Source: Leptospirales bacterium (lineage in GTDB: Bacteria; Spirochaetota; Leptospiria; Leptospirales; Leptonemataceae). Taken from it: a stretch of 64,000 nt of DNA. Positions 43,209 to 62,526 of this stretch are shown here, one piece after another (position 1 is the stretch's first letter; the number at the start of each line of letters is the position of its first letter). The notes under the pieces are model-generated. The model searched no databases, was not told where the DNA came from, and saw only the letters and a program-made list of their open reading frames with translations. Both the position numbers and the translations under genes were made by a program. The stretch covers positions 124,001 to 188,000 of the forward strand of contig JAIBBN010000001.1 in the NCBI GenBank assembly GCA_019694655.1. The letters are read 5' to 3'.

Positions 43209-44597
43209 ATGCAGGCCCTCGATATATCGCTGGCCGATTTGCGTCGCCTCGAGGCGCAGAGCAAACCGGGGCCGCGCTACACCAGCTATCCGACAGCCCT
43301 GTCATTCAGCGAGGAGCTGGGGCCATCCGAGTACGCGGCAATGCTGGAAGAGCGCCGCGCGCTGCGCTCGCCGCTCTCGCTGTACCTGCACATTCCCTTC
43401 TGCGAGAACATCTGCCTCTATTGCGCCTGCAGCGTGGTCTATACTGCCAACCACCGTCGAGCCGCCCCTTACATCGAGCTGCTCAAGCGTGAAATAGCTC
43501 TGACAGCCGCTCACTGCGGCTCACAGCGTCGCGTGGAGCAGCTTCATCTGGGCGGCGGCACGCCAACCTTCCTCGAGCCGCAGCAGCTTCTGGACCTGAT
43601 ATCTGCTTTGCGCGACTCCTTTGATATCGCAAACAATGCGGAACTCTCCATCGAATTGGACCCGCGGGTTACCAGCGACGAGCATCTTGCTGCTCTGGCG
43701 CAAGTCGGATTTCGCCGCGCATCGTTGGGCGTGCAAGACTTTGCGCCTCAAGTGCAGGAGGCCATTCATCGTCAACAGTCGGAGGAACTGGTGGCGAACC
43801 TGGCTGCAGATCTACGGCGTCGCGGCTTCGAAAGCCTGAATTTTGATTTGATCTACGGCCTGCCGCGTCAGAGCGAACAGAGTTTCCTGGATACCGTTCG
43901 ACGCACGCTGGCCCTTGGCCCCGATCGCATCTCGCTATTTCATTTTGCCTACCTGCCGGGGGTGGTGAAGCACCAGCAGCGAATTCGCGCCGAGGAGTTG
44001 CCCGATGCCGAGGCGCGCCTGCGCATCTTCTATGGCGCGTTGCAGCTGTTTCTTGAGGCAGGCTACGAAGCAATTGGCATGGACCATTTTGCGAAGCCCG
44101 GAGATGAACTGGCCATTGCGGCGCGGCGCGGCGCATTGCACCGCAACTTTCAAGGGTATACCACGCGCGGCGATCTGGACCTGATCGGTCTCGGTCTCAC
44201 TGCAATCGGCGACTTGAAAGACGCCTACTTTCAGAATCAGCGCGGATTGTCGGAGTATGAGCAGGCGATCGGCGATGGCCAACTGGCCACGCAGCGCGGA
44301 GTACGACTCACCGAAGAGGACAAACTGCGGCGCGCAGTGATTCAGGACATCATGTGTCGCGCTTCGCTGTCTTTTGCTGAGATCGACGCACGCTTTGGCC
44401 TCGACAGTCGACGGCATTTTCAAGAGGAGCTACGGTCGTTGCACCCTCTGATTGAGGAGGGCTTGCTCCGAATGGATGATCAGGGCCTGCTGGTAAACGC
44501 CCTTGGTCGCTTTGCCCTGCGCAACATTGCCATGGTCTTTGATGCGCGACTTGCCGAACTGAATCAGAAGGCGCCGCGCTTTTCCCGCACCGTCTAA
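43209..44597 (+). CDS. hemN: oxygen-independent coproporphyrinogen III oxidase
   Basis: HemN is a radical-SAM enzyme of anaerobic haem synthesis. 462 residues. The cluster motif is YLHIPFCENICLYCACS (C-x3-C-x2-C-x-C) in the N-terminal third, preceded by the HemN-specific GPRYTSYPTA. LHLGGGTPTFL, NFDLIYGLP and GMDHFAKPGDEL are also family blocks. The length is typical for true HemN rather than HemW. It fits the need for haem in the nearby cytochrome and NO-reductase genes. I see no Fnr-type box in front of it. Confidence 0.95.
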   Translation: MQALDISLADLRRLEAQSKPGPRYTSYPTALSFSEELGPSEYAAMLEERRALRSPLSLYLHIPFCENICLYCACSVVYTANHRRAAPYIELLKREIALTAAHCGSQRRVEQLHLGGGTPTFLEPQQLLDLISALRDSFDIANNAELSIELDPRVTSDEHLAALAQVGFRRASLGVQDFAPQVQEAIHRQQSEELVANLAADLRRRGFESLNFDLIYGLPRQSEQSFLDTVRRTLALGPDRISLFHFAYLPGVVKHQQRIRAEELPDAEARLRIFYGALQLFLEAGYEAIGMDHFAKPGDELAIAARRGALHRNFQGYTTRGDLDLIGLGLTAIGDLKDAYFQNQRGLSEYEQAIGDGQLATQRGVRLTEEDKLRRAVIQDIMCRASLSFAEIDARFGLDSRRHFQEELRSLHPLIEEGLLRMDDQGLLVNALGRFALRNIAMVFDARLAELNQKAPRFSRTV

Positions 44598-44923
44598 GGC
44601 CTGTCAGGGCTCGGACCTGGCCGCGGACCAAGCCGTAAGCGCAGAGCGCGACGATGATCGCCAGTCAAGAAGGCAACAACACGTCTGCCGACAATCAGGG
44701 GCCGCTCTTCGCATGCCGTGCTTGGACATTCGAGGCGGGAATTTTCATCGACGGCAAACTGCACAACCCGCCCCTGCCGGTCTTTGACCTGAAGCATTCC
44801 GTTTTCAAAAGATTCGATGATCCCGAAGACCCGGTGCCCTTCATGAGCCGGCAGCGTCGCTGGCAATGCCGGCAAAAGAACAAGAGCAAAGGCGCAGTAC
44901 AGATGCAATGTTCTACGGTGCAT
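44594..44923 (-). CDS. small periplasmic protein of the copper/haem cluster
   Basis: 109 residues with a signal peptide ending near LPATLPAHEGH. The mature protein begins with His-Glu-Gly-His, a possible metal ligand set. It continues as a small beta domain (RVFGIIESFENGMLQVKDRQ, then RVVQFAVDENSRL, RRVVAFLTGD). This resembles OB-like domains that bind metals in copper-related proteins, but I cannot name a family. Its start overlaps the cytochrome gene end by 11 bases, and it is the last gene of the cluster. Its stop overlaps hemN by four bases on the other strand. Confidence 0.7.
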   Translation of the reverse strand: MHRRTLHLYCAFALVLLPALPATLPAHEGHRVFGIIESFENGMLQVKDRQGRVVQFAVDENSRLECPSTACEERPLIVGRRVVAFLTGDHRRALRLRLGPRPGPSPDRP

Positions 44924-45470
44924 GAAGAAATTCCTCCTCTTCGCGCCGCTCGCGCAGCAAACGTACGCCCTGTGGCGATCGTTCAGCGATTTCCTGCAGC
45001 TCTTGCGGACTTAGCTGCGGCAAAGCGCGAATAAGACGCACCAGCTCCCAGCTTTCCAGATCGTTGGCGCTGCCATCGCCAAAGGCTGGCATGCCTGAAA
45101 AGCGAATGCCGCTGGCAATCGCAAAGTAGATTTCGCCGTCGCTCAGCTGCTGTGTGCCCTGGCGCAAATCCGGCGCAGGCGGATAAAAGTGAAATTGTCC
45201 GCCTGCGCCGTCGGCGCCGTGGCAGAAGGCGCAATGATCCGCGTAGTGCAACCGCGCGCGCCGTAGAGTCGCCGCATCGTTAGCAGCCGGATTTGGCGTC
45301 CGGATCAACTGCTCGGGCGTCAGCCAGCGACGAAGGCGACGCATGAGCGCCGTTTCCAGAGCGCCCGGCTCGCCGCTGGCGGTGCTATCGACACGCAGCA
45401 GCAGGCCTGACGCAAGGACTGCGCCGATTGCCAGCAGCGCCGCAACAACTCCCTTGCTTTTCACCGCCAT
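44913..45470 (-). CDS. c-type cytochrome, membrane-anchored
   Basis: 185 residues. An N-terminal helix (about 7-27) acts as signal or anchor. One haem-binding motif CAFCH lies near residue 83, and a distal Met in GMPAFGDG is near residue 127. The region YPPAPDLRQG, typical of class I cytochromes, lies between them. It could feed electrons to MbnH. It begins 24 bases after the barrel gene. Confidence 0.9.
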   Translation of the reverse strand: MAVKSKGVVAALLAIGAVLASGLLLRVDSTASGEPGALETALMRRLRRWLTPEQLIRTPNPAANDAATLRRARLHYADHCAFCHGADGAGGQFHFYPPAPDLRQGTQQLSDGEIYFAIASGIRFSGMPAFGDGSANDLESWELVRLIRALPQLSPQELQEIAERSPQGVRLLRERREEEEFLHAP

Positions 45471-45493
45471 CGCCTTAGCCCTATCGCATTCAT

Positions 45494-46522
45494 CTACTGC
45501 TCGGCCCCTTGCGCTGGCTCATTTTGCAGCCACTGGTCCTCATCAAGATCCTGGTTTTCGGGATCGGCGTCCCAGAGATGCAAGACAAATGCAAAGCGCC
45601 AGGCGCCGGCGTAGAGTCGCTGCGCGCGCGGATTTTCCGGACCGACGCCGCGGCCAAAGTAAAGCAGCGGGACTTCCCAGGACGGACGACTGCGCTTCTG
45701 GTAAAGCGGATGCTCGTAACCAAGCTCCAGCTGAAGACGGTGTTCGACTTCATAGCCCAGACCGAAATCAAGCGATCGATAGATCGAAGGCGCTTCGCCT
45801 TGCGCATCCCGTTCTTTGAGAACGCCGGCATAGGGCAATCGATAGTTGAAAGCTGCTGAGGCGTAGATCTGTTCGCTCAGGAAGCCGCCAACGCGCAGCC
45901 GCCAGGCTGTACTCTTTTTCAATTCGTGAGTCTGACGGGCGGGAGGCGGTTCGTAGGCAATGGACTGCACCGGATCCTGCGGCGGCGGCGCCTGCTCGGG
46001 CAATCGCGAAAGTGGAAAGGCGCCGCTAACGCTCAGGTCGCCGAAGAAGGGCGATGCATTGTAACCCAGCCCTGTTCCGATTCGTCCCTCCTGATAATCT
46101 TCGTCCACAAAGCGCGAACGCGTCGGGCCTGTCGCCGGCAGGTAGGCTGCTTGCAGCGTCCACTGCCACGGACCAGATTCCAGCGGCATCGCTTTTAGGC
46201 CGATCTCTACGCGACCCAGCCGTCCGGCGTCGCTGCGATTCTTCTGCGACAGGTAGTGGTAGCTTGCGGCCCCGTAGAAGGAGAAGGCCTGACCGAAGGC
46301 CAGTTCGCCGGCCAGACTGTTCAGCCATCGATCGCGGTCGCCCTGTTCTCCCATCCGCACCTGCAAGGAATAGGCAACCTGGTTGCGCGGCAGCAGACCC
46401 GGCGCCGCACTGCCGCCGCCGCTGCCGCCGTGATGGGCCTGCAACGGATTCATGGCTGCGGCCAGCAGCAGCATGGCCCCGAGGCCTTTCGCTATCAATG
46501 GCGCCTTCGGTATTGTGCTCAT
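45494..46522 (-). CDS. outer-membrane beta-barrel candidate
   Basis: About 342 residues from the ATG at 46522, which overlaps the previous stop by ATGA. The signal peptide ends near MNPLQAHHGG. The mature start is His-His-Gly-Gly-Ser-Gly, glycine-rich. Later residues alternate polar and aromatic positions (SFYGAASYHYLSQKNRSD, RIGTGLGYNASPFFGDLSV, SLDFGLGYEVEHRLQLELGY), as in barrels. The C-terminus does not end in Phe; it continues into an acidic tail. No family is named. Its coupling to the MbnP/MbnH pair suggests a role in copper or small-molecule passage. Confidence 0.7.
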   Translation of the reverse strand: MSTIPKAPLIAKGLGAMLLLAAAMNPLQAHHGGSGGGSAAPGLLPRNQVAYSLQVRMGEQGDRDRWLNSLAGELAFGQAFSFYGAASYHYLSQKNRSDAGRLGRVEIGLKAMPLESGPWQWTLQAAYLPATGPTRSRFVDEDYQEGRIGTGLGYNASPFFGDLSVSGAFPLSRLPEQAPPPQDPVQSIAYEPPPARQTHELKKSTAWRLRVGGFLSEQIYASAAFNYRLPYAGVLKERDAQGEAPSIYRSLDFGLGYEVEHRLQLELGYEHPLYQKRSRPSWEVPLLYFGRGVGPENPRAQRLYAGAWRFAFVLHLWDADPENQDLDEDQWLQNEPAQGAEQ

Positions 46523-47313
46523 AGATGGAAGCACTCCGTTTCCGACAGTACGTCGCTGCTGGCGAGGTTGTCATGTATGGCGTCTTGAACCGCATCTTGC
46601 GTTGCGGCCGCTACGCCCTCGAAAAGATGCGAATAATTAAAGAGCAGCTTTGCCTGTGCATCGCGCGCCGGGCTCATTTTCGCCGGGCAGGCCAGCGCGG
46701 CGTTCCAGTCAAAGTTCTCGTTGGCGACGACGGCGAAGGCCGCGCCGTTGATTGTACCGGCGGCAACCAGGCGATCGCCATGCAGACGCACTGCATTGGC
46801 GACGGCAAAGGCCCCGAATATCTCCAGCGGACCGCCTCGATTGTAAGGATGGCCGCCAAGATCCAGCTCGCTTCCGGAGGCCGCTGGCGAAAGGGCGTCG
46901 AGAGAGTAGTTGATATCAGTCAACAAATTTGATGCTCCGCCGCCAGCGCTGCCTGCTTCGCCGTGCGCCTGCAAACTGCGCCGTCCGAGAATGCCGCCAA
47001 GCCGGTCCAGCCACGATCGCTCGCCGGTCCGGCCGTTCAGGGCAAGCGGCGCCAGGCCAATTTCTGCTCGATAAAAGTGAACCTGCATTGCAGTCAGGTG
47101 AATGTTGAAGGTGTTTTCGGTGAAGTCCTGAATCGTATCAAGTCCGCCGTCGGCAGAGCGCAATTGAAGCTGGATGCTGGAGCTGGCGCCCAGCAGCGTT
47201 GCAAGGGCCTGCAGCTGAGCTTTTTGTTCCGCTGTGGCATCGCCCTCGGCGCCAAACAGGCAGGCGCCTATCAGCGATGCGCAGAAAATGGAAAACAGTC
47301 GTTTCATGTTCAT
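46519..47313 (-). CDS. secreted protein of unknown function, coupled to mbnH
   Basis: 264 residues. The signal peptide ends at LIGACLFG, which can also be read as a lipobox. The mature part begins with a helix and continues as a beta-rich domain (FNIHLTAMQVHFYRAEIGL, INGAAFAVVANENFDWNAAL, AQAKLLFNYSHLFEGVA). It ends in LSETECFHL. Two lone cysteines (ALACP and ECF) lie in the second half. It starts by ATGA overlap at the MbnH stop and overlaps the barrel gene by four bases. Its tight coupling suggests it works with the MbnP/MbnH pair. Confidence 0.72.
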   Translation of the reverse strand: MNMKRLFSIFCASLIGACLFGAEGDATAEQKAQLQALATLLGASSSIQLQLRSADGGLDTIQDFTENTFNIHLTAMQVHFYRAEIGLAPLALNGRTGERSWLDRLGGILGRRSLQAHGEAGSAGGGASNLLTDINYSLDALSPAASGSELDLGGHPYNRGGPLEIFGAFAVANAVRLHGDRLVAAGTINGAAFAVVANENFDWNAALACPAKMSPARDAQAKLLFNYSHLFEGVAAATQDAVQDAIHDNLASSDVLSETECFHL

Positions 47314-48617
47314 ATCCCAAAGTGCGAGTCGGCCGGTTGGGGATTGCTGAAGGCCGGGTTGTTTAAGAAACTCGAATCGTTCAGACTCATTAAAAATTCA
47401 ATCAGGTCTGCTTGCTCTTGCGCTGTGAGCCCGAAGGGTCGGATTAACGTTTGATCTACCGCTGGATGCGGCTGCCCCATTCCATCGCGTTTCCCGCCGT
47501 TCATGTAGTGATTCAGAACCAGTTGTAGCGCATCGCGCGCGCAAGCGTCGGCGTCTCCCGCCAGGGCCGGATTGCAGGCGACGCTGCCATCGTGCATATA
47601 AGGGAAGGTCATTCCTACATTGCGTAGCGATGGCGCTCGGAACCTACCTTCGTCTCCGGCCTGTCCGGTTGCATCGATCAAGCCGCGTTCGCGCATTGGC
47701 CGCGCAGCATAGTCGGCGGCAAGATACAATCCATTGTTGTGATAGAAAAGCTCCGGCGACGGCAAGCCAGGATGGTTTACAGAGTCGCTGAAGGTAAATC
47801 CGCCATGGCAATGGAAACACTCGGCAGTCTCTCCATGAAATAGATTTGCGCCGCGTATCGCCGATGCATTGATCGCGCCCGTCTCGCCGCGCAAGAAGCG
47901 ATCGTAGGAGGAATTGAAGCTCAACATTGTTCTCTCGAAAGCCGCCAGACTGCGGCGAATCCGTGACTCGCTGATATCCGCGCTGCCATAGGCGCGCCGA
48001 AACAACTCCAGATAACGCGGATCATTGCGCAGCTTGTCTAAGTAGCCTTCATTGCTTAGACCAAGTTCAACAATCGTGCTGGGTCCGGATGCGCCAAAGA
48101 GCGGCGCGGCCGCCTGTGCTTCCAGAGTCACAAAGGCTGGATTGGCCCAGGTCAGGCGCGAGAAGTAGGCAACGTTGGCCAGGCTTTGTGAGTTTCGGGG
48201 ATGCGTCTCGCCCGTCGGGAAGGCGTCGTGGGCAATGCCATTGGGTCGCGCGGCCCGGGTGGTGAATCCAAGGCCTTGCTGATGACAGCTGGCGCAGGAC
48301 ATCGATTCGTCGCCGGACAGTCGTCGGTCATAAAACAAGTGACGGCCCAACTCGGCCCGCTCCGGCGTGGTGCAGTTTTCCGCGGGCTGCGGCGGAATGG
48401 GCGTATTCGGCGGCAGCCCTGGCGTATAAGGCCTGCAGGCGCTGGCAAGCAGCGCCAGGCCAAGTAATTCGGCATTGAGGTCGTCCTCCGATTTCGGAAA
48501 GACCGCTTCCCATATCAGGCAGCTGTGCAGCAAAGCGCACAAGGCGGCCAGCGCCGCAGCCCTCAGGTAGAGGGCGACGACGAAGGTGCGACGGCAAATG
48601 CTATGGCAAGCGGCCAT
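47310..48617 (-). CDS. mbnH: MbnH-family di-haem enzyme
   Basis: 435 residues. Two haem motifs, MSCASCH (about residue 108) and CFHCH (about 267), with the spacing of bacterial di-haem peroxidase relatives. The family blocks GRHLFYDRRLSGDES, SLANVAYFSRLTW, and APSLRNVGMTFPYMHDGS are present. In the methanobactin system MbnH oxidises a tryptophan of its partner MbnP to kynurenine. The signal peptide ends in a lipobox-like LLHSC at about residue 33, so it is probably a lipoprotein. It starts one base after the mbnP stop and overlaps the next gene by ATGA. Confidence 0.88.
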   Translation of the reverse strand: MAACHSICRRTFVVALYLRAAALAALCALLHSCLIWEAVFPKSEDDLNAELLGLALLASACRPYTPGLPPNTPIPPQPAENCTTPERAELGRHLFYDRRLSGDESMSCASCHQQGLGFTTRAARPNGIAHDAFPTGETHPRNSQSLANVAYFSRLTWANPAFVTLEAQAAAPLFGASGPSTIVELGLSNEGYLDKLRNDPRYLELFRRAYGSADISESRIRRSLAAFERTMLSFNSSYDRFLRGETGAINASAIRGANLFHGETAECFHCHGGFTFSDSVNHPGLPSPELFYHNNGLYLAADYAARPMRERGLIDATGQAGDEGRFRAPSLRNVGMTFPYMHDGSVACNPALAGDADACARDALQLVLNHYMNGGKRDGMGQPHPAVDQTLIRPFGLTAQEQADLIEFLMSLNDSSFLNNPAFSNPQPADSHFGI

Positions 48618-48618
48618 G

Positions 48619-49545
48619 CTATTGACTCACGCGAAAGGCTTCTACAGAAGCCGAATTGGATGCGCCGGTGGCGCCGTTAACGCCAAGGGTGTCGAGCAAG
48701 GTGTCGCAGACCGCGCCGCCCTGACGCGGCATACAGGTTAGAGCTCCAGGATTCTGCGGGAAACCGCGCAATAACTCATTCAAATCGAGCACTACCCGCC
48801 GCTGCGCAGGGTTGAATCCTGAACTATCCGAGATACGAACCTCAGGCCGATTGGCGGCGCTGCAGGTAACGCCGGAGGGAGGGGTCCCTGCACACCCGGT
48901 GCTGCCCAGGTGGAAATTGGTTAGATTGGATCCGCCGTCGCGAAGTTCGATCTTGGCAAACTTGTAGCCGCTGGTCCAGGCCCAGTTCATTGCCGTAATG
49001 TTTAGCGGCGATCGCGTATCGGCGCCGTCCCGGTCGATGTGATTGCTGGCTTCCGGAACTCCCACATTGAATGCTACGCCAGTATAGGCGCCCGATGGCG
49101 CCGTATAGCGCACCGATCGATTGGTTCGACTGTCGCCTACGCAGCCCGCCGTAGCGTCTTCAAAGTCCAGCAGTGCGACTCCGTACTGCTGGTCTTGAAA
49201 TACGCCGTCCGATACAATCGTCGCCGGCGTTTCGACGCCAGCGGCATCGAGGAAGCGCAGATTAGAAACAAAGAAGCGTAGATCTTGAACGGCGTAGCTT
49301 ACAGCAACGCCGGCCCCGGCGTTAGTATTTTTTGCGGTAATGGCCCCGCATTGAAACTCGACGGCATTGGCATCGATGACCTGGAAAGACAGCGACTGCG
49401 GAAGCAGGGCGGCAATGGCCAGCATGCCCAGCATTTCGGCATCTCCATTCTCCGTTTGCTGGCAAGCAAGCGCAGGCAGAGAACTCAGCGCTGCCAGGGC
49501 GAAAAGCAATGCCCGGCGAGATTGCAATAATATAGATCGATACAT
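48619..49545 (-). CDS. mbnP: MbnP-family copper-binding lipoprotein
   Basis: 308 residues from the ATG at 49545, preceded by GGAGGAAC. The signal ends in the lipobox LPALAC (Cys28). Family features are LSFQVIDANAVEFQCG, VALLDFEDATAGC, FNVGVPEASNHID and MNWAWTSGYKF, which holds the tryptophans (188/190) where MbnH is expected to act. The cysteine pattern is C66, C135, then C218 and C228, then LTC and VCD near the C-terminus. It is the first of a coupled set with mbnH. No methanobactin precursor or MbnB/MbnC genes are seen. Confidence 0.88.
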   Translation of the reverse strand: MYRSILLQSRRALLFALAALSSLPALACQQTENGDAEMLGMLAIAALLPQSLSFQVIDANAVEFQCGAITAKNTNAGAGVAVSYAVQDLRFFVSNLRFLDAAGVETPATIVSDGVFQDQQYGVALLDFEDATAGCVGDSRTNRSVRYTAPSGAYTGVAFNVGVPEASNHIDRDGADTRSPLNITAMNWAWTSGYKFAKIELRDGGSNLTNFHLGSTGCAGTPPSGVTCSAANRPEVRISDSSGFNPAQRRVVLDLNELLRGFPQNPGALTCMPRQGGAVCDTLLDTLGVNGATGASNSASVEAFRVSQ

Positions 49546-49563
49546 TGTTATAGTTCCTCCAGT

Positions 49564-49585
49564 AAAAAACGGCCGCATCTCGGCC
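49564..49585 (-). terminator. terminator-like hairpin in front of mbnP
   Basis: On the minus strand a 5-bp GC stem (GGCCG, loop AGATG, CGGCC) is followed by a G and six T. It ends only six or seven bases before the mbnP ribosome-binding site. There is no room for a promoter between it and the gene, so any message for mbnP and mbnH must pass through it. It may therefore be an attenuator. Confidence 0.5.
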
Positions 49586-49671
49586 TGGGGGAGGCGCTCG
49601 CAAATCAGAGTACGCAGGGACCCGGTGCAATCCAGGTTTGCTCTCAGAATCGGCGGCCAGGCCGCCCTTTG

Positions 49672-49690
49672 CGATCGCCTCAGGCGATCG
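49672..49690. repeat. inverted repeat at the end of the DUF2946-like gene
   Basis: The palindrome CGATCGCCT / AGGCGATCG spans the stop codon of the DUF2946-like gene. It is followed at 49652-49666 by a second palindrome, GGCGGCC-A-GGCCGCC. Neither has a T tract. They may form structured RNA between the two genes. Confidence 0.5.
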
Positions 49691-50144
49691 GAGGCGCTCG
49701 CGACGGAGGAAGGAAACAGGACTCAGCGCAGACCAGTTCGGTGTGCGGCGATTGCGAAAATGCGTAGAGCGTCTGTAGCTGCACAGCCAGAGGCTGAATC
49801 AGCGGCGCAAGCGTGAGCGCCAGATGAAGAAAACTCTGACAGATGGGACAGGTATCGTGCTGATGGGGCGCGTCGTTCGCATGGCGGCTGTTGTGGCGCG
49901 AACCAGGGTCGGCGCTTTGCGCCTGCTCTATCAGATTGGCAATGGCGGCGGCCTGGTGGCAGGCAGGCAAAGTCTGTATGTAGCGTCGCTGTGCGTCGCT
50001 GAGCTTTGCATCGGAGATCTGTCCGGGATTGAGAACGGGGCAGCGGTGCAGCGAGGGGACCGGATACTGCAGACAAAAGGCCAGCAGCGCCGCAAGCGAG
50101 GCGACCTGTCGTGCGCGCAGTGTGGCAAAGAGCCGCAGGCCCAT
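49680..50144 (-). CDS. DUF2946-like small periplasmic protein
   Basis: 154 residues with an N-terminal hydrophobic segment (VASLAALLAFCLQY). The mature part is His-rich near residue 90 (SRHNSRHANDAPHQHD), then has CPICQSF and a hydrophobic helix. It ends in SRAPPIA, the C-terminal pattern of DUF2946 proteins, which occur beside copper genes. It precedes mbnP by about 134 bases on the same strand. This suggests metal binding in the same pathway, but a function is not established for the family. Confidence 0.75.
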   Translation of the reverse strand: MGLRLFATLRARQVASLAALLAFCLQYPVPSLHRCPVLNPGQISDAKLSDAQRRYIQTLPACHQAAAIANLIEQAQSADPGSRHNSRHANDAPHQHDTCPICQSFLHLALTLAPLIQPLAVQLQTLYAFSQSPHTELVCAESCFLPPSRAPPIA

Positions 50145-52759: not shown

Positions 52760-53413
52760 TCAAAGCTGGCCGATGCGCAATCGCCCGTTCTCCTCGCTCA
52801 ACGCGCCGCGATCCTTCAACGACGCCAGTGCACGACTGAAGGCCTCCGGGGTGATTCCTAAGTAGAGTGCAACCTGCCCTTTGGGGATATCGAGCAAAAT
52901 GGGAGAATCGCCGGCCCCCAGTTCTTGCAGGAATCCAAGTACGCGTTCCTCTGCCGACTGCAGCATGAGCATGCTGCTTTTGTCTCGAAAAAAACGGGCA
53001 ATCTCCAGCATCGAATCCTGCAAAGCCCCTTGCAAGAGCGGCCTGTCGCGCAGCAGGATGCGCATGGAATCGACCGGGTAAAGCCGCAAATCGGAATGCT
53101 GGATGGAGCTGCAGGCTGCCGGATAGCTTTCGATGTTTCGAAAGAGAGGCAGGACGGCAATGCAATGGCCCGCAGTAAAGAAGCTGAGCACCGCCTGCTT
53201 GCCCGAGGAATTGACGCGAAAGACCTTGCAGGCCCCGCGTTCTACCAGAAAGAAGCCGCGGTAGCGATCGCCCTCGCCAAACACGCTCTCGCCTGGCTCA
53301 AAGTTGAGCGGTCGCGAGATTTCCTGCAGCGCTGCCCGATCCTCCGGCTGCAGACTGTCGCGAAAATCAGGAGTCACCGGGCCTGTTGAAAATGTATCCT
53401 GCCGCTCTGTCAA
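52760..53413 (-). CDS. Crp/Fnr-family regulator (Dnr/NnrR-like role inferred)
   Basis: 217 residues. The cyclic-nucleotide-like sensor domain (NFEPGESVFGEGDRYRGFFLVERGACKVFR) is followed by a dimer helix and an HTH at the C-terminus (GQVALYLGITPEAFSRALASLKDRG). The N-terminal cysteine cluster of FNR is absent, so it is not an oxygen-sensing Fe-S Fnr. This fits Dnr/NnrR-type NO responders. It lies 14 bases after norD. The start is a TTG at 53413; a GTG at 53377 is an alternative. Its target sites are probably the TTGAT-N4-ATCAA boxes at 58181, 60123 and 60173. Confidence 0.85.
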   Translation of the reverse strand: MTERQDTFSTGPVTPDFRDSLQPEDRAALQEISRPLNFEPGESVFGEGDRYRGFFLVERGACKVFRVNSSGKQAVLSFFTAGHCIAVLPLFRNIESYPAACSSIQHSDLRLYPVDSMRILLRDRPLLQGALQDSMLEIARFFRDKSSMLMLQSAEERVLGFLQELGAGDSPILLDIPKGQVALYLGITPEAFSRALASLKDRGALSEENGRLRIGQL

Positions 53414-53427
53414 TCGAAGCGGGAGCT

Positions 53428-55146
53428 TCAGCTGCGAAGCAGTCTGAGATAGAAATCGCCAAGAGCCTCCGGCAACTGATCCGGATCGTGCAGGATCTGG
53501 CAGGCGCCCTGTCCAAGCATTTCCTGAAAAGCTGCGCGCCGGCGCCAGTCGACGGCAAAGACCTGGACATGGATGCCGGCGGCCTGCGCTTCGCGGATTG
53601 CCTGGCGTACGTCCAGATTGCCGTAGCGGCCTTCATAACGATCGTAGTCGTTCGGGCGACCATCGGTGATCAGCATCAGCCAGCGCTGTGCGGCCGGCGT
53701 TGTGCGCAGTTGCGCTGTTGCATGACGCAGCGCCGGTCCCACGCGCGTGTAACCCTCCGGCTGCAGGCGACCCAGCCGGTCGCGTACTGTCTGCCAGCCT
53801 TCCGTGCGCTCTTTGATGCGTAAGTATTCGCAGTCGTTGCGCGTACGGGAGTAGAAGGCGGCGGCGGCAAACTCGCAGCCGTGCAGGGCAAGCGCCTCGC
53901 CAAAGAGGATCAGGGCTTCGCGCTCCACGTCGAGAACGCGCCGGTCCATCAGCCAGGCATCGGCGGACATGCTCAGGTCGAGCAAAAAGAGTATGGACAG
54001 GTCCTTGCGCCGACGCCTTCGACTGAGGTAGAGTCGTTCCTCCGGACTGCGGCCCGCAGCAAGATCGCAGAAGCGTTCGCAGAGGGCGTCAAGGTCCGGG
54101 TCGTCCCCGCTCAACTGCCTATGGAGCAACTGCAACTCCTGAAATACAGCGGCGAATTTACGCTCCAGACGACGAAAGGCGGCGGATCGCTCCTGAAGAA
54201 CCTGCGCTGCATAACCCGGTCGAACCTCGCTCAGCTGCCGCTGATACAGTCGACAGTGCCGCGGGCGGTAGCTGCGCTTTCTGAAATCCCATTCATCGTA
54301 GAAAACTGCCGGTGAGGTACTCTGTTCACCGGATATTTCTCCGCCGCCGGCGCCGCCTTGTTCCAGCGCACGAATGCTCTGGGCCTGTTCCGTAGATCGG
54401 ATGCGCCAGGCCAGTTGCAATTCCTGCAGCGCTTCGCTGTGCTGGGCCTGCTCATCTTCTCCATCCAGATCGCGCCAGCGGCCGTCAAAATCGTCGAGGG
54501 TTTCAATCTTTTCAAAATTGTGACCCAGAGTGTAATCCTCGATGGCCTTCTGGTCCGGCGTGAGCCAGCGGGCATTTTCCGGCAATGCGGCGACAGGGCT
54601 ATGCTCTTCTTCGGCCGCTCTTTGAGATTGAATCGCCGCGCCGGGGCCTGCCGTCGCGCTCTCGCTGATCTCCAAATAGCGGCCGCATAGCATTTGCCTC
54701 AAGGGCCGCCAGGCGTGCGGCGGACGCCTGCGATCCAGAGACTCTTCGCGACGGATCATTTGCTTTACTCTTGCATAGAGATCGCGCGCCTGCGGAAATT
54801 CTCGCAGAGCGCGGCGCAGCGCCAGACGATGAAGGCGCGGGGCGTCGACGCGCTGCAAGGGCTGACTGGCCATCAGCAAGATGCGTAAACGAAAGAAGTC
54901 CAGATTTTCTTGCAAGGCGCCGGAGATGCACTGACCGAAGGGCAGATAGAAGCGGTCGCCAGCGCGGCCGCCAATACCGTCTGAAGCGCGTTCCAGCTGA
55001 ATGCCGCGGCCAGCAAGCAGCAGAGCAAAGCTTTGCAGACGCGGCAGCTGATCGCCCGGTTCGGCGGCAGGCCACAGGGGGCGCGGCGTGCGCAGGCGGC
55101 GCAGTCCGCGCCAGATCCAGCGAAAGACGAGCTGATCAAGCTCCAT
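53428..55146 (-). CDS. norD: NorD, vWA-domain protein for NO reductase activation
   Basis: 572 residues. The C-terminal von Willebrand A domain has the metal site DLSMS in LFLLDLSMSADAW, and later ITDGRPNDYD. The N-terminal half is helical with long charged stretches. NorD and NorQ act together as a MoxR-type chaperone that matures the NorBC nitric oxide reductase, probably by inserting iron. The gene starts 20 bases after norQ and is followed by crp. Confidence 0.93.
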   Translation of the reverse strand: MELDQLVFRWIWRGLRRLRTPRPLWPAAEPGDQLPRLQSFALLLAGRGIQLERASDGIGGRAGDRFYLPFGQCISGALQENLDFFRLRILLMASQPLQRVDAPRLHRLALRRALREFPQARDLYARVKQMIRREESLDRRRPPHAWRPLRQMLCGRYLEISESATAGPGAAIQSQRAAEEEHSPVAALPENARWLTPDQKAIEDYTLGHNFEKIETLDDFDGRWRDLDGEDEQAQHSEALQELQLAWRIRSTEQAQSIRALEQGGAGGGEISGEQSTSPAVFYDEWDFRKRSYRPRHCRLYQRQLSEVRPGYAAQVLQERSAAFRRLERKFAAVFQELQLLHRQLSGDDPDLDALCERFCDLAAGRSPEERLYLSRRRRRKDLSILFLLDLSMSADAWLMDRRVLDVEREALILFGEALALHGCEFAAAAFYSRTRNDCEYLRIKERTEGWQTVRDRLGRLQPEGYTRVGPALRHATAQLRTTPAAQRWLMLITDGRPNDYDRYEGRYGNLDVRQAIREAQAAGIHVQVFAVDWRRRAAFQEMLGQGACQILHDPDQLPEALGDFYLRLLRS

Positions 55147-55166
55147 AAGCGTTCTCGGATCGCACT

Positions 55167-55958
55167 CTAAAAGTAGAGCGCCGCCAGATCGCCAAGGGCC
55201 TGTAAGGTATCGCTATCGTCGGTCAGCGCCTCGGCAATGGCCGCCCTGCAGGACATCCGTTCCGGAAGTCCGGAGTTCATCAGCCGGGCGGCGTCGGCCA
55301 GCAAACGCGTCGAGGCCGTCTCCGAAAGTCCCAGTTCTGATTGTGCTCGAATCTTTGCCGCCATCTTGACCAGCGCCGTGGCGCGCGGCGCCGATACGCC
55401 GGTCTCTCCGCAGAGAATTTCAATCTCTACCTCGGCCGGCGGATAATCAAAGCTCCAGGCGACAAAGCGCTGCCGGGTGGACGGTTTCAGTTCTTTGATA
55501 CCGCGCTGGTAACCGGGATTGAAGGAAGCCACCAGCATGAACTCTGCGGGCGCTGGCAGGCTTTCATTACGTCGATCCAGGTAGAGCGCGCGTCGATGAT
55601 CGGTGAGCGAGTGAATGGCGACAATTACATCGGGTCGCGCTTCGGCAATTTCGTCGAGGTAAATGATCGCTCCCTCGCGCAGCGCTCGCGTCAGCGGGCC
55701 GTCCTGCCAGATTGTTTCGGCGCCTTGAATGAGGTAGCGGCCAAGCAGGTCTACGGCCGAGGTCTCGTCGTGGCAGGCGACAGTAATCAGCGGACGCGCC
55801 AGGCGCGCCGCCATATGTTCCACGTATCGCGACTTGCCCGAGCCGGTGGGGCCCTTCAGCAGCAATGCCAGCTGATTGCGGAAGGCGTGCTCAAAGAGCT
55901 CGCATTCGCGCCCCACCGCCCGGTAGTAGGGGATTTGCACCCCGCTTGCATCAGCCAT
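55167..55958 (-). CDS. norQ: NorQ/CbbQ-type MoxR AAA+ ATPase
   Basis: 263 residues. Walker A GPTGSGKSRYVEH near residue 36, Walker B AIIYLDEIAEARPD, sensor 1 MLVASFNPGYQ, and the arginine-finger region in STRQRFVAWSFDY. The family partners with a vWA protein (norD) to mature metalloenzymes. It starts on the last base of the norB stop (TAATG). It is cytoplasmic. Confidence 0.94.
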   Translation of the reverse strand: MADASGVQIPYYRAVGRECELFEHAFRNQLALLLKGPTGSGKSRYVEHMAARLARPLITVACHDETSAVDLLGRYLIQGAETIWQDGPLTRALREGAIIYLDEIAEARPDVIVAIHSLTDHRRALYLDRRNESLPAPAEFMLVASFNPGYQRGIKELKPSTRQRFVAWSFDYPPAEVEIEILCGETGVSAPRATALVKMAAKIRAQSELGLSETASTRLLADAARLMNSGLPERMSCRAAIAEALTDDSDTLQALGDLAALYF

Positions 55959-57325
55959 TAGCGGCCAGCGGCAACAGCCTCATCCGACGCATCCTCCGGC
56001 ATCATCGCCTCCATTTTTGGCAGTCCGTGTCGCAGGAATTGGACAATGTAAATCGCAATTCCAACGGTGAAGAGACTGGCCCCGGCGAGCATGCCCACAA
56101 AGTGAATGGAAATTTCCTTTTGCACCGCCAGGAAGTCCATGCCCATCTTTCGTTCCAGATATACCTGGGCGATGCCGGCGACAGCCAAAGCGCCAGTCAT
56201 CCCAAGCATGCCAAGGTTTGCACACCAGAAGGCGATGTAGCCAGCCATTGTATCCCACAGCTTCCGTCCAGTCAGCAAGGGAGTTGCATAGGAAATGACT
56301 GCCAGTACCAGCATTGCATAGGCGCCCCAGAAAGCCAGGTGGCCATGCATGGCCGTGATCAGCGTGCCGTGCGTCCAGCGGTTGACCTGCGGCCAGGTAT
56401 GGGCAAATCCCAGAAATCCGGCGCCCAGAAAGGACATCACCGCACAGCCAAGCGTCCAGAAGATGGCGATCTTGTTGGGGTGTTCGCGTCCCTTCTTGCG
56501 GTACATGTTGATCGCCCAGATTGCCATGCCCAGGAAAGCCAGCGGCTCCAGCGCCGAGAAGATTCCGCCCACCATCAGCCAGTAGCGCGGCGTACCGATC
56601 CAGTAGTAGTGGTGTCCGGTGCCGAGAATACCCGATAGAAATGTGAGTCCAATGACTACGTAGAGCCACTTCTCTACCACCTCGCGGTCAATGCCGGTCA
56701 GCTTGATCAGCAAGTAGGACAGTATGCCGCCCATGATCAGCTCCCAGACGCCCTCTACCCAGAGATGCACCACCCACCAGCGAAAGTAGGAGTCGAGCGT
56801 CTGATTGTCGAAGTAGATCATCCCCGGCAGATAGAGCAATGCTGCGCAGAAGAGGCCAAAGAAGAAGACCAGCGAAGTGGTCGTCAGTCGCTTACCCTTC
56901 CACAATGTGAGCCCGACGTTAGCCAGAAAGGTCAATACGTTAACCACCACCAGGTAGTCGAGCGGTCGCGGGATCTCCAGAAACTTGCGTCCTTCCCACC
57001 AGTTCAAATGAAAACCGATCAGGGCGATCACGCCAACCACCACCCAGCTGGCCCACTGCAGTACAGCTATCTTAGGCCACAGTAATTCGCGCTGCGCTTC
57101 ATCGGGGATAATAAAATAAGCGGCGCCCATGAAGCCGGTCAACAGCCAGACCACCAGCAGGTTGGTATGTGTAGCGCGCGCTGCATTGAAGGGAATCCAC
57201 TGGTGAAGTCCGTCATAGCCAATGCGCGCAAAGCCCATGATGAAGCCGTAGATGATCTGCAGCGTCAACAGCAGCGCCACCGTTGCGAAAAACAGATACG
57301 CGATTCTTTGCGATTTGTATTTCAT
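55958..57325 (-). CDS. norB: nitric oxide reductase subunit B (cNOR type)
   Basis: NorB is the catalytic subunit that reduces two NO to N2O. 455 residues, with 12 hydrophobic helices. Haem and FeB ligands appear as RATHTNLLVVW, VVHLWVEGVWELI (with the conserved Glu residues near FeB), LGTGHHYYWIG and MHGHLAFWGAY. No N-terminal quinol-oxidase-type extension is present, so it is the cytochrome c-dependent type with NorC as partner. It follows norC by 12 bases. It ends on the norQ start. Confidence 0.97.
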   Translation of the reverse strand: MKYKSQRIAYLFFATVALLLTLQIIYGFIMGFARIGYDGLHQWIPFNAARATHTNLLVVWLLTGFMGAAYFIIPDEAQRELLWPKIAVLQWASWVVVGVIALIGFHLNWWEGRKFLEIPRPLDYLVVVNVLTFLANVGLTLWKGKRLTTTSLVFFFGLFCAALLYLPGMIYFDNQTLDSYFRWWVVHLWVEGVWELIMGGILSYLLIKLTGIDREVVEKWLYVVIGLTFLSGILGTGHHYYWIGTPRYWLMVGGIFSALEPLAFLGMAIWAINMYRKKGREHPNKIAIFWTLGCAVMSFLGAGFLGFAHTWPQVNRWTHGTLITAMHGHLAFWGAYAMLVLAVISYATPLLTGRKLWDTMAGYIAFWCANLGMLGMTGALAVAGIAQVYLERKMGMDFLAVQKEISIHFVGMLAGASLFTVGIAIYIVQFLRHGLPKMEAMMPEDASDEAVAAGR

Positions 57326-57337
57326 GGAACAGTCCTC

Positions 57338-58033
57338 TTATTTCAGCGTCGCCAGGAAGGCGACCAGTGCGGCGCGTTCGGCGTCGCTCAACGGCAATTT
57401 TGGCATTGCTGTACCCGGCTTCACCGACTGCGGATCGGATAGCCAGCGATCCAGATAGGCGAGATCGCGACGGGCGCCTACGCCATCCAGCGCTGGCCCG
57501 ACGTTTCCGCCCTGGCCGCCCAGCGAATGGCAAGCAGTACAGAGCTGTCCAAACTTTTCAGGCGCCTTGCTGAGGTCGACGGCAGTGCGCGCGATGACCG
57601 GCTGCGAGTTAGCGGCGGCGATATCGGGCTCGGGCGGCCAGCCGTTGGTATCGACTTCGCCAATCCACTTCAAGAAAGCGATGACGTCGCCGATCTGTTG
57701 TTCGGAAAAGTGGTATTGAACCATCTTGCGCTCTCCCGGAAACATTGCCTCGGGATCCTGCAAGAATACGCGCAGCCATTCCGGTCCGCGTTTGCGATAG
57801 CTCGTGGTAAGATCCGGCGCGTAGTAAGCGCCTTCTCCAAGAATTGTATGACAACCCATACAATTGTTCTGGTCCCAGATGGCCTTGCCGCGCTTCACTT
57901 CCTCGCTCAGATTCTGACCTCTCGTGCGCTCGCCAGTTTGACGCAAAGAGTCTACCGTCAAACCAAGGAACAGCGCACTGAAGAGCGCAGTGCCGATGAG
58001 AAAAAAGGCGCGGGCTTGCGATTTGGATAGCAT
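57338..58033 (-). CDS. norC: NorC with an extra C-terminal cytochrome c domain
   Basis: 231 residues, longer than usual NorC (about 150). An N-terminal membrane anchor (about 8-27) precedes the NorC domain with CMGCH (residues 58-62) and an axial Met in ERKMVQYHF (M104). A second cytochrome c unit begins near residue 150 and has CTACH (165-169) and the Met in GTAMPKL (M210). The NorC part alone matches the family. The additional haem may help electron entry from a donor protein. A GGGAGG site precedes the ATG. An Fnr-type box lies 148 bases upstream. Confidence 0.94.
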   Translation of the reverse strand: MLSKSQARAFFLIGTALFSALFLGLTVDSLRQTGERTRGQNLSEEVKRGKAIWDQNNCMGCHTILGEGAYYAPDLTTSYRKRGPEWLRVFLQDPEAMFPGERKMVQYHFSEQQIGDVIAFLKWIGEVDTNGWPPEPDIAAANSQPVIARTAVDLSKAPEKFGQLCTACHSLGGQGGNVGPALDGVGARRDLAYLDRWLSDPQSVKPGTAMPKLPLSDAERAALVAFLATLK

Positions 58034-58180
58034 CGCCCCTCCCGTTGCACATTCTGCGCAACGTCCAAGTCTGGGCCGGAGCCGCTTGAATCAGGCAAGC
58101 TTTAATTGTTTGCTGGCTTAAAGAGACATAGAAGCTATTGAGAGAGCTGGCCCGCTCTTTTGATGGCCGCAGGATCATCC

Positions 58181-58194
58181 TTGATCCAGATCAA
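58181..58194 (-). promoter_or_regulatory. Fnr/Dnr-type operator upstream of norC
   Basis: Perfect 14-base palindrome TTGATCCAGATCAA, matching the Crp/Fnr-Dnr consensus TTGAT-N4-ATCAA. It lies about 148 bases before the norC ATG. The -10 hexamer could not be placed with confidence. The same core occurs at 60123 and 60173. Confidence 0.8.
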
Positions 58195-58225
58195 GAAGTC
58201 TGAAAAATTTGCAGTGGAATTGGCA

Positions 58226-58248
58226 GCGGCGCAGTAAGACTGCGCCGC
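58226..58248 (-). terminator. hairpin after the porin gene
   Basis: A 9-bp stem (GCGGCGCAG and CTGCGCCGC, loop TAAGA) sits seven bases after the porin stop. On the minus strand a short run of T comes only about 15 bases later, so termination would be imperfect. It separates the porin from the norC promoter region. Confidence 0.5.
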
Positions 58249-58254
58249 GATGAT

Positions 58255-60075
58255 TCAAAACCGAGCGGTTGCCATCAGGTAGGCAAAGTGCGCAGTGCGC
58301 CGCGATTGCGGCTGCTGCAGGGCCAGAAATTCTGCCGGTCGATCAATGCGTCCATCGCTCAGATCGCTGACCACCCGGCGACTGTATAGCTCCTGGCGAA
58401 TCAGCAGGTCGTCCTTGAGCGCGCCGACGGCATCGCCGCCGAGGATATAGCTGTATCCGGCGCGCCATTCGATGGCCAGCGCTTTGACCTCGTAGACAAG
58501 ATCATATTCGCGGAACAGGTGTTTGCGCAAATGGCCGACGCCAAGGGCTGCGGCGCTCAAATCCGTATTGTAGGCCGAAGCGAAACGTGCATTGGAGGCC
58601 GATTCGGTGCTGGCCTGTGTAGCCCCGCTCTGTCCTCCTCCTGTAACTTTGTACCAGGCGTCCTGCGCTCTGTATTTGTCCGCCGACCAGTAAGCGATGC
58701 GCAACTTGCCGGCGTCGCCCAGGCGCCATTCCAGATTGATCGACCAGGCTTTCATGTTCTGCCAGCTCACCAGATCTGCTTCGCCAAATTTACCATGGTT
58801 GGTGGGGAATAGATTGTTGAATGTAGCAACCGTTGCGTCGTTGCGATTGCCGTCGCCGCTTCCAACCAGAGCCTCGCCGCCCAGGCGCAGCGACTCAAGC
58901 ACGCGGTAGCCGATGCTGGCTGCTGCGGCAAATGCATCGATGCGCTGGCGCTCAACGTAGACGCGGCAACCGCTCAGCGAAGACCCGTCAGGCTGAGTTA
59001 CCGTGGCATAAACGCGGCAAGGATTGGCGGCGCTGGTGAAAAGATCCGTCGGCAGGGGGGCAATGAGCTGCGCCTGATCCCAGGCTGCGCCCACATAGCG
59101 TCCGCTGCGCCCGGTTTGCCAGGCATATTCCAGCGTCCAGTCCAGAGGACCGGCAGCGCTCTTGCCGCCGTCGACAGTGCGATTGGTGAAGCGCGCGCCC
59201 AGCGTATGCAGCTGCTCGGCTTCGCGGCTCCGATCCTCGGTGTTGATGATGGCCACGCCGCCGCGACTCTGGATCGCTGTCGCGTCGGCTACCGGCGCGC
59301 TGCGTTGCACAGGGCTGAAGCGCGCTCCAATATAGTAGGGCTCAATCTGAAGCCACTCAATGGGCTTGAATGTATTGTAGATTCCAAATAGTCTGGCGTC
59401 GTCCAGGTCTCCGTTCTGGGCGCCCACCGCCGTCGAATTGCCGGCGCTATCTGAATCCTGTTCGGCGAGTTGTGCGACAAACCACTGCGAGGACCAGGCA
59501 TCGCCATGCAGGTTGGCGCGAATTCCATCAAAGCTGCGGCCGACGTTAGTCCAGTCCAACGGACCAATCAAACGCTGGTCGCCAAAGGCCAGAATCAATC
59601 TTCCGCCGCGTACATCGAGGCCGCCCCAAAGCCCGGTGGTCTCCAGCCAGGCCTCGCGTACGTCGACGGATTGCCGCGTGTCGTCGTTCGCTGTGGCCAG
59701 TCCCGTATCGGAACCGCGTTCGGCGCCCCAGACCCGAGAATCCTGGAGACGGATGCGCGCTGCGCTGGATTCGCCCAGTTTGGCGGCAACGCCAAGCTCG
59801 CTGCGCATGCCGGTAAACTCCTGGTTGTCGTCGCGGGCGCGGCAAAGGGTCCCGCTACAGCTGAGATCCGATCGATCAAAATTGAAATTGTATTTCCATT
59901 CCGGACGAACTCGGACCATACCATCCACGCGAATGGCCTCCCAGGCCTTGAGCAATGCTCGCATTCGTTCCATTTCGCCGGGATCCGCCGGCGTCGTTTC
60001 GCCTTCGGCGGCCAGCGAATTCAATGCAGCCAGCAGCAAGGCGAGCAAAAGTACCAATTTCTTAAACGTTGACAT
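58255..60075 (-). CDS. alginate-export-type outer membrane porin
   Basis: 606 residues from the ATG at 60075, preceded by GGGGG. The signal peptide is MSTFKKLVLLLALLLAALNSLA. The family marker of alginate-export proteins is GRLILAFGDQRLIGPLDWTN followed by GRSFDGIRA. Beta-strand alternation continues to the C-terminal TARF, ending in Phe as in barrels. Similar porins often accompany denitrification genes and may help nitrite or nitrate cross the outer membrane. It is divergent from nirK, with two Fnr-type boxes between them. Confidence 0.9.
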   Translation of the reverse strand: MSTFKKLVLLLALLLAALNSLAAEGETTPADPGEMERMRALLKAWEAIRVDGMVRVRPEWKYNFNFDRSDLSCSGTLCRARDDNQEFTGMRSELGVAAKLGESSAARIRLQDSRVWGAERGSDTGLATANDDTRQSVDVREAWLETTGLWGGLDVRGGRLILAFGDQRLIGPLDWTNVGRSFDGIRANLHGDAWSSQWFVAQLAEQDSDSAGNSTAVGAQNGDLDDARLFGIYNTFKPIEWLQIEPYYIGARFSPVQRSAPVADATAIQSRGGVAIINTEDRSREAEQLHTLGARFTNRTVDGGKSAAGPLDWTLEYAWQTGRSGRYVGAAWDQAQLIAPLPTDLFTSAANPCRVYATVTQPDGSSLSGCRVYVERQRIDAFAAAASIGYRVLESLRLGGEALVGSGDGNRNDATVATFNNLFPTNHGKFGEADLVSWQNMKAWSINLEWRLGDAGKLRIAYWSADKYRAQDAWYKVTGGGQSGATQASTESASNARFASAYNTDLSAAALGVGHLRKHLFREYDLVYEVKALAIEWRAGYSYILGGDAVGALKDDLLIRQELYSRRVVSDLSDGRIDRPAEFLALQQPQSRRTAHFAYLMATARF

Positions 60076-60094
60076 GATAACCCCCGGTGGGGCC

Positions 60095-60100
60095 ATCTTA
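60095..60100 (-). promoter_or_regulatory. -10 element of the porin promoter
   Basis: The minus-strand hexamer TAAGAT (four of six to TATAAT) suggests a transcription start near 60088. The palindrome at 60123-60136 is then centred 41.5 bases upstream, the exact class II position for Crp/Fnr activators. No -35 hexamer is needed. Confidence 0.6.
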
Positions 60101-60122
60101 TCCGCTTTGCTTTCGATTTGCT

Positions 60123-60136
60123 TTGATCCGGATCAA
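60123..60136. promoter_or_regulatory. Fnr/Dnr-type operator (porin side)
   Basis: Perfect palindrome TTGATCCGGATCAA in the divergent nirK-porin region. Its centre at 60129.5 lies 41.5 bases upstream of the porin start predicted from TAAGAT at 60095-60100. Confidence 0.8.
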
Positions 60137-60172
60137 GTGAAGCTTAAAGAATTGCTTTTTTTCCCTCCCAGT

Positions 60173-60186
60173 TTGATCCAGATCAA
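60173..60186. promoter_or_regulatory. Fnr/Dnr-type operator (nirK side)
   Basis: Perfect palindrome TTGATCCAGATCAA, identical to the norC site. It is centred about 54 bases before the nirK ATG. A class II start would fall near 60221, which overlaps the ribosome-binding site; the -10 there is not clear. It could also act on the porin promoter from a distance. Confidence 0.78.
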
Positions 60187-60233
60187 TGCCCTTCCACCGG
60201 GATTGTGCGAAGAGGGGGCAAGAGGAGGCTTCT

Positions 60234-61661: not shown

Positions 61662-61685
61662 CTGCAAGTTGGGGCGTAGAGGGCA

Positions 61686-62522: not shown

Positions 62523-62526
62523 TCGA

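Follow-up and report, generated by a model that had tools for sequence, protein, structure and literature searches.

Genes for the MbnP/MbnH pair have already been described well beyond methanobactin producers (PMC3621798), and so far such pairs have had no clear purpose. Which purpose could they serve in a spirochaete that appears to lack methanobactin? We addressed this question for a 64,000-nt stretch of DNA from a Leptospirales bacterium (the window, whose numbering is used throughout; its genome is coded G000), in which seven minus-strand open reading frames (ORFs) at 44594-50144 include mbnP and mbnH. The first five of them, encoding a leader, MbnP, MbnH, a lipoprotein related to Lsa30 and an outer-membrane barrel, form a unit that, judged from the genome sequences, recurs throughout the order and corresponds to the consecutive Leptospira tags LIC11090-LIC11086. 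We consider it reasonably probable that the whole is a copper-limitation operon, combining a stalling leader, the copper site made by MbnP and MbnH, an Lsa30-type lipoprotein and a barrel that passes copper. The coordinates given in an earlier reading of this DNA, here called the original prediction, were confirmed for all seven same-strand genes, which are separated by short gaps or overlap:

49680-50144, minus strand: leader ORF, very probably CruR-type, DUF2946, 154 aa
49546-49679, minus strand: structured gap between leader and mbnP, 134 nt
48619-49545 (ORF open to 49578), minus strand: mbnP, lipoprotein of the WxW copper-site family
47310-48617, minus strand: mbnH, di-heme MauG-like enzyme with two CxxCH heme sites
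46519-47313, minus strand: Lsa30-family lipoprotein with predicted MbnP fold, without WxW
45494-46534, minus strand: 12-stranded outer-membrane barrel, LIC11086 family, mature N-terminus probably HH
44913-45470, minus strand: membrane-anchored mono-heme cytochrome c, window-specific (PF13442, 1e-10)
44594-44923, minus strand: small secreted orphan protein (HEGH protein), probably cleaved between A and HEGH

MbnP and MbnH without methanobactin

The assignment of the two central proteins to the MbnP and MbnH families was borne out by curated profiles. MbnP reached 208.8 bits against TIGR04052 (cut-off 140) and 112 bits against PF20243 (cut-off 27), and MbnH 378.6 bits against TIGR04039 (cut-off 362.85). 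The nearest solved relatives were 7l6g, the MbnP of Methylosinus trichosporium (3.7e-24), and 6e1c, named 'Di-heme enzyme' (7e-71), respectively. In this family, MbnH makes a kynurenine at the WxW motif of MbnP. The WxW tryptophans and the conserved cysteines of MbnP are invariant among relatives (n=15), and both heme sites of MbnH, CASCH and CFHCH, are conserved in the relatives' alignment; the MbnP of the window may carry the same modification. mbnP has two possible starts; the ATG at 49545, closely preceded by GGAGG, is likelier than that at 49578, which falls within a hairpin loop. The numbering of the tryptophans in the original prediction fits this start:

48976-48984, minus strand: WxW motif of MbnP, W188/W190 from start 49545 (W199/W201 of the longer ORF)

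The absence of methanobactin genes was upheld genome-wide. We found no MbnB methanobactin synthase above cut-off in the window genome or in the 29 other genomes of the order, the single sub-threshold DUF692-like match in the window genome scoring 43 bits against an MbnB cut-off of 325. With DUF692-like paralogues only in these 30 genomes, a methanobactin operon was rejected. The window genome also gave no match to the TonB-dependent copper receptor profile TIGR01778. As a side observation, Pseudobacteriovorax (L089:10282-12485) and a proteobacterial metagenome-assembled genome (MAG; L106:4375-6690) carry second, divergent mbnP/mbnH pairs next to the main one.

Conservation of the operon core across the order

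mbnP was present in 13 of the 30 genomes of the order and in 20 of 393 sampled genomes of the phylum. The seven-gene unit of the original prediction was checked by genome-neighbourhood comparison, for which we distinguish the family of the window (f1), its sister family (f2) and a third family (f3). In every f1 and f2 locus long enough to judge, mbnP, mbnH, the lipoprotein gene and the barrel gene are contiguous, with a CcmH-like gene in locus L029 as sole interruption; this gene (L029:8332-8910; PF03918, cytochrome c maturation) separates mbnH from the Lsa30-type gene, which fits the c-type heme requirement of MbnH. Homologous leaders were found in five relatives. The lipoprotein accompanies mbnP in 12 of the 13 genomes, the thirteenth (G007) stopping at a contig edge, compared to 2 of the 17 genomes without mbnP, and there as fragments only (p 2e-5). 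The f3 loci hold mbnP, mbnH, a barrel and, in several cases, PP-ended leader-like ORFs, with no Lsa30-type lipoprotein. Since the MbnH of f3 groups elsewhere in the tree of this enzyme, the unit of five genes follows the order.

The last two genes fared differently. The cytochrome c had no homologue in the relatives' loci, and the HEGH protein matched neither any of the other 29 genomes of the order nor any family, so both were dropped as conserved parts. Thus, five genes of the proposed unit stand, and the cytochrome c and the HEGH protein are confined to the window. The same applies to the idea of a self-contained system with its own outer-membrane passage and electron carrier: the barrel is conserved, and the electron carrier can belong at most to this genome.

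Two genomes show partial versions of the locus. In G004, mbnP and mbnH are gone, the lipoprotein gene is split and the barrel is intact. G001 has a reduced operon (L148:7175-9059) consisting of a leader ending in SRDPPV, a cysteine-rich lipoprotein of 130 aa and a barrel of the LIC11086 type that starts with HH, with no mbnP or mbnH.

Correspondence with a Leptospira gene series

The link to LIC11086-LIC11090, which the original prediction did not contain, came from the f2 locus L032. There, the order is leader, MbnP, MbnH, Lsa30-family protein and barrel, and the two outer members exceed the cut-offs of the respective Leptospira families (leader against LIC_11090, 105.6 vs 75; barrel against LIC11086, NF047618, 415.7 vs 350). 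In Leptospira interrogans, LIC11088 is annotated as 'di-heme enzyme' (PMC8308593), LIC11087 is Lsa30 (PMC4388678), LIC11089 is Lsa32 (PMC9694704) and LIC11086 is a COG4313-like channel that has been tried as a vaccine candidate (PMC9586249, PMC5406399). Locus-tag order, position and size suggest that LIC11089 is the MbnP of this series. Lsa30 was once called restricted to pathogenic Leptospira (PMC4758666); contrary to this label, the family is present in uncultured relatives of the window genome. Among the papers searched, none linked Lsa30, Lsa32 or LIC11086 to MbnP/MbnH or to copper.

The leader ORF

The original prediction had listed the first gene as a DUF2946-like protein. The motifs and spacing of that family are indeed present, and the match to the DUF2946 profile is full-length at 23.5 bits, just below the gathering cut-off of 23.7; rather than being a working part of the pathway, however, it very probably serves as a regulatory leader ORF of the copper-sensing CruR type. 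Its end is laid out as CPIC, 46 residues, RAPP, two residues and stop:

49839-49850, minus strand: codons of the putative copper-sensing motif CPIC, aa 99-102, read directly; CPxC in 6 of 6 aligned f1 leaders
49689-49700, minus strand: codons of the candidate ribosome-arrest motif RAPP, aa 149-152, read directly; arrest is known for other peptides

The distance between CPxC and RxPP is 46-47 residues in the leaders of five relatives (156-226 aa), and the aligned f1 leaders, six including that of the window (154-226 aa), end in RAPP, RGPP or RPPP. RAPP and RGPP are experimentally proven arrest motifs, and arrest of the CruR of Bordetella pertussis has been shown in vitro (PMC12992588). Across f1 and f2, 13 of 14 mbnP genes (all but that of L024) follow a leader whose final 10 residues include PP, a feature of about 2% of the other genes there.

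For cruR, the Rho site has been mapped to a C-rich, G-poor rut region, and the message of the window leader has a similar bias. Its sense-strand (C-G)/(C+G) of 0.207 ranks first among 60 gene-sized ORFs of the window (mean -0.006, standard deviation (SD) 0.052, i.e. +4 SD). Among relatives, the leader is the most C-biased ORF of its own locus for four of five leaders with CXXC and for one of two without. Rho itself is encoded in the genome (710 bits to the rho profile). The gap between leader and mbnP folds with a minimum free energy of -57.9 kcal/mol (z -2.8 against shuffled sequences) and contains an additional element:

49571-49585, minus strand: intrinsic-terminator-like hairpin GGCCG-AGATG-CGGCC followed by GTTTTTT (six U), read directly; not kept in relatives

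As a switch, this terminator was rejected: relatives do not share it, and folding constrained by a stalled ribosome did not produce a clean on/off pattern. Separately, an exact 12-nt repeat, GCGAGCGCCTCC, occurs within 49546-49711, one copy lying where RAPP is encoded and the other in the 3' arm of the hairpin in the gap; such a repeat arose in 1 of 5000 shuffles. The two copies are possible competing partners for the sequence at the leader stop codon.

In Bordetella, copper relieves the stall at CruR and shuts off the downstream copper-uptake gene. This analogy supports copper limitation well as the trigger, and the window operon is probably expressed under copper limitation, that is, ON at low copper, if its leader senses copper as its counterpart does.

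The Lsa30-type lipoprotein

The protein encoded after MbnH, formerly an unknown secreted protein, is predicted to be secreted, as had been proposed, and so are MbnP and MbnH. The protein is no longer without relatives: the most fitting description is that of a divergent member of the Lsa30 family, a lipoprotein with a predicted MbnP fold. A signal sequence is present, and in the aligned relatives a lipobox-like cysteine and two further cysteines are invariant. The top Foldseek match of its AlphaFold model (pLDDT 74) was the solved MbnP (E 0.064), and VIA aligned the model to MbnP 7l6g with Z 9.1 over 165 residues (root-mean-square deviation 3.3), the next best match having Z 5.8. The family profile found no match among Protein Data Bank sequences. 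Since the sequence-profile support is weak, the fold assignment rests on structure.

The connection to Lsa30 was made through a chain of profiles. A profile built from f1 lipoproteins only detects the f2 homologues at 4e-6 to 5e-19, an f2 member matches NF047544 (Lsa30) over its full length at 3.4e-40, and six of 11 aligned family members match NF047544. The equivalog cut-off of 500 bits was missed by the window protein (17) as well as by L032 (138); by profile comparison, the window lipoprotein is thus a relative of the Lsa30 family and not an Lsa30 equivalog.

The outer-membrane barrel

The barrel candidate of the original prediction turned out to be a 12-stranded outer-membrane barrel in the structural model, travelling with MbnP and MbnH across the order. 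VIA gave Z 21.3 to the COG4313 channel 4rl8, 19.9 to the FapF secretion channel and 12.7 to PcoB. Against NF047618, the window protein scored 104.5 bits, below the exception-type cut-off that the syntenic barrel of L032 exceeds. Signal cleavage is predicted after A33, leaving H34-H35 at the mature end; the predicted mature protein starts with HH (HY in one) in 11 of 11 f1 and f2 members, and with EH or DH in two f3 members.

In Beta- and Gammaproteobacteria and in Bdellovibrionota, a different predicted barrel of about 400 aa with an invariant HxH follows directly after mbnH. Nine of these barrels have His at +1, a feature of about 1% of the other secreted-like proteins in the same loci. Homology of the spirochaete barrel with these proteins is unsupported (hhalign probability 0.6%), and neither the spirochaete barrel profile nor the Lsa30-type profile found a match in 77 non-spirochaete MbnH loci. 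We read the histidine starts as a sign that a metal-binding N-terminus next to MbnP may have been required independently in both groups.

Further loci touch on these partner proteins. On contig 9 of G017, near nirK, a second CruR-like leader ending in RDPPSMRFA is followed by a methionine-rich PF13557 barrel (L125:238-2012), and L025:2715-6431 contains a similar barrel with an LIC_11090-type leader and a lipoprotein; both are possibly further leader-controlled copper channels. In Myxococcota (L061, L066, L088 and L097), a lipoprotein of 205-237 aa with a YEGGATDEAL-like stretch, in some starting with CGHDHDH, comes directly after mbnH and is a possible further partner family of MbnP/MbnH.

Proposed function and alternatives

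The CruR-type leader makes copper acquisition, as originally proposed, the most likely purpose of the operon. The sequences and models show the family assignments, the motifs, the kept gene order, the similarity in fold, the base bias and the RNA structure; the steps that follow are proposed on that basis. When copper is scarce, a ribosome would stall at RAPP close to the leader end and block Rho (or the local terminator), so that mbnP, mbnH and the remaining genes are transcribed. With copper present, the nascent CPIC would bind the metal and release the stall, and transcription would stop ahead of mbnP. MbnH would convert a WxW tryptophan of MbnP into kynurenine, yielding a tight copper site, and MbnP together with the second MbnP-fold lipoprotein would keep copper at the envelope. 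The LIC11086-type barrel, with its histidine N-terminus probably in the periplasm, may pass or hand over copper across the outer membrane; this role and the direction of copper movement are conjectural.

Several points weigh against this proposal. CXXC is missing from the f1 leaders of L026 and L029, and those of f2 have CXC, with KPP as a putative arrest motif. The best matches of the barrel are phenol-pathway and amyloid channels, the copper transporter PcoB ranking lower, and the barrel fold is uninformative on cargo. The hhalign relation between MbnP and Lsa30 reached 50%, in the N-terminal part only. Furthermore, Lsa30 and Lsa32 were published as adhesins of the host matrix that bind laminin and plasminogen (PMC4388678, PMC9694704, PMC4758666). 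Finally, CutF, which also belongs to DUF2946, activates a copper-detoxification gene encoding a multicopper oxidase when copper is present, and the sign of control could thus be reversed.

This last point leads to the best surviving alternative, copper detoxification or storage, in which a CutF-like leader would turn the operon on at high copper, MbnP and the Lsa30-type protein would sequester the excess and the barrel would export it. The shared family of CutF speaks for it, as does the likeness of the barrel to PcoB, which is annotated as a copper transporter. However, CutF is built from CxxxC and a stem-loop covering the start site, whereas the window leader, with CXXC, RAPP and the long structured gap, is of the CruR type, and the operon is without copper-resistance genes. 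We regard this alternative as unlikely.

Somewhat more doubtful still is a role in cuproenzyme maturation, in which the operon would load copper into neighbouring periplasmic enzymes (NirK, SCO, oxidases) and the barrel would merely anchor or secrete a component. Such a role is suggested by the position of the operon between hemN and a nor/nirK/SCO island and by the copper chaperones that cruR operons often hold. The original prediction had set the cluster in the context of a genome with NirK; a tie to NirK did not survive the comparison of 30 genomes, in which mbnP and nirK proved independent (NirK in 7 of 13 mbnP-bearing and 5 of 17 mbnP-lacking relatives, Fisher p 0.26) and the nirK loci of three relatives are without mbnPH, and a NirK partnership was rejected. 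In addition, the genes conserved in the operon encode lipoproteins of the envelope and a barrel. The weakest alternative, surface display with matrix binding as main role, would let the FapF-like or COG4313-like barrel export MbnP and the Lsa30-type lipoprotein, as the Z of 19.9 to FapF and the published binding of LIC11087 and LIC11089 might suggest, but is very improbable given that the same gene order occurs in uncultured relatives known from MAGs, together with a leader of the copper type and a di-heme enzyme that modifies tryptophan, and that the binding data come from recombinant proteins presumably devoid of the cofactor made by MbnH.

Returning to copper acquisition, we tentatively extend it to the Leptospirales including pathogenic Leptospira, an extension to which we give rather less than even weight: a copper uptake operon under leader control and independent of TonB, where MbnP (Lsa32/LIC11089) and Lsa30 (LIC11087), the second protein of MbnP fold, bind copper, the 12-stranded LIC11086 channel with its N-terminal histidine moves it across the outer membrane, and the adhesin roles are secondary or incidental. 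The Lsa30 and Lsa32 "adhesins" may, in short, belong to a system that takes up or handles copper. If so, two proteins studied as adhesins and a vaccine-candidate channel share one copper operon, which offers an alternative explanation of their conservation and a reason to repeat the binding work on recombinant Lsa30 and Lsa32 with metal and MbnH. We see this testable reinterpretation of Lsa30, Lsa32 and LIC11086 as the most valuable consequence of the analysis. With a leader before and a barrel after mbnPH in spirochaetes, and likewise, though the barrel is unrelated, in Beta- and Gammaproteobacteria and Bdellovibrionota, copper acquisition without a TonB receptor also becomes directly testable.

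Genomic setting

The host is a free-living spirochaete; among relatives with a name, the closest are one 'Spirochaetaceae' MAG and one from an uncultured Leptospiraceae member, which agrees with the spirochaete-like character assigned from the DNA alone. Copper NirK and SCO are both encoded in the window, as had been stated. They belong to a denitrification island upstream of the operon (53428-63123) with norD-like and norQ-like genes, norB, norC, a gene for a porin-like protein, nirK with a fused cytochrome c, a gene for a formylglycine-generating-enzyme-like protein, and SCO. A Crp/Fnr regulator is encoded beside the island at 52760-53413. A search for a sigma-70-type promoter before the leader found none. 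Matches of window proteins to PF02226 and to an XPC-binding domain were taken as chance.

Comparison with known systems

Both MbnPH without methanobactin and cruR ahead of MbnPH, the latter noted in cruR operons (PMC9426467), are already published; the order-wide five-gene module and the Leptospira link are new. The closest known counterpart of the leader is CruR of B. pertussis (bp2923, DUF2946), with CXXC-45-RAPP-3 (PMC9426467) compared to CXXC-46-RAPP-2 here; the two share an export signal, a message with more C than G, a structured gap and the position as first gene of a copper operon. The window leader differs in its spirochaete host, which lies outside the lineages named in PMC9426467, in being followed by a barrel instead of a TonB-dependent transporter, and in the intrinsic-terminator-like hairpin in the window genome. 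The described range of CruR-like leaders is thereby extended to spirochaetes, and the CXC/KPP-type leaders suggest a new variant.

The MbnP/MbnH pair (TIGR04052/TIGR04039, GenProp0940) resembles known pairs in the cut-offs passed, in the invariant WxW, cysteines and heme motifs and in the adjacency of the genes. It differs in that both proteins are lipoprotein-like, in that the operon has neither methanobactin genes nor a TonB receptor, and in the second MbnP-fold lipoprotein and 12-stranded barrel downstream. MopE/SACCP and CorA/CorB of methanotrophs likewise place a di-heme peroxidase next to a secreted partner protein; the copper site of MopE contains a tryptophan-derived kynurenine and the methanotroph genes are copper-repressed, although the MbnP sequence is not markedly similar to either MopE or CorA (PMC3621798). 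A further likeness is to LIC11090-LIC11089(Lsa32)-LIC11088-LIC11087(Lsa30)-LIC11086 of L. interrogans, whose five-gene order recurs in the relative L032; the leader of the window is of the CXXC/RAPP type, whereas LIC_11090-type leaders carry CXC and KPP.

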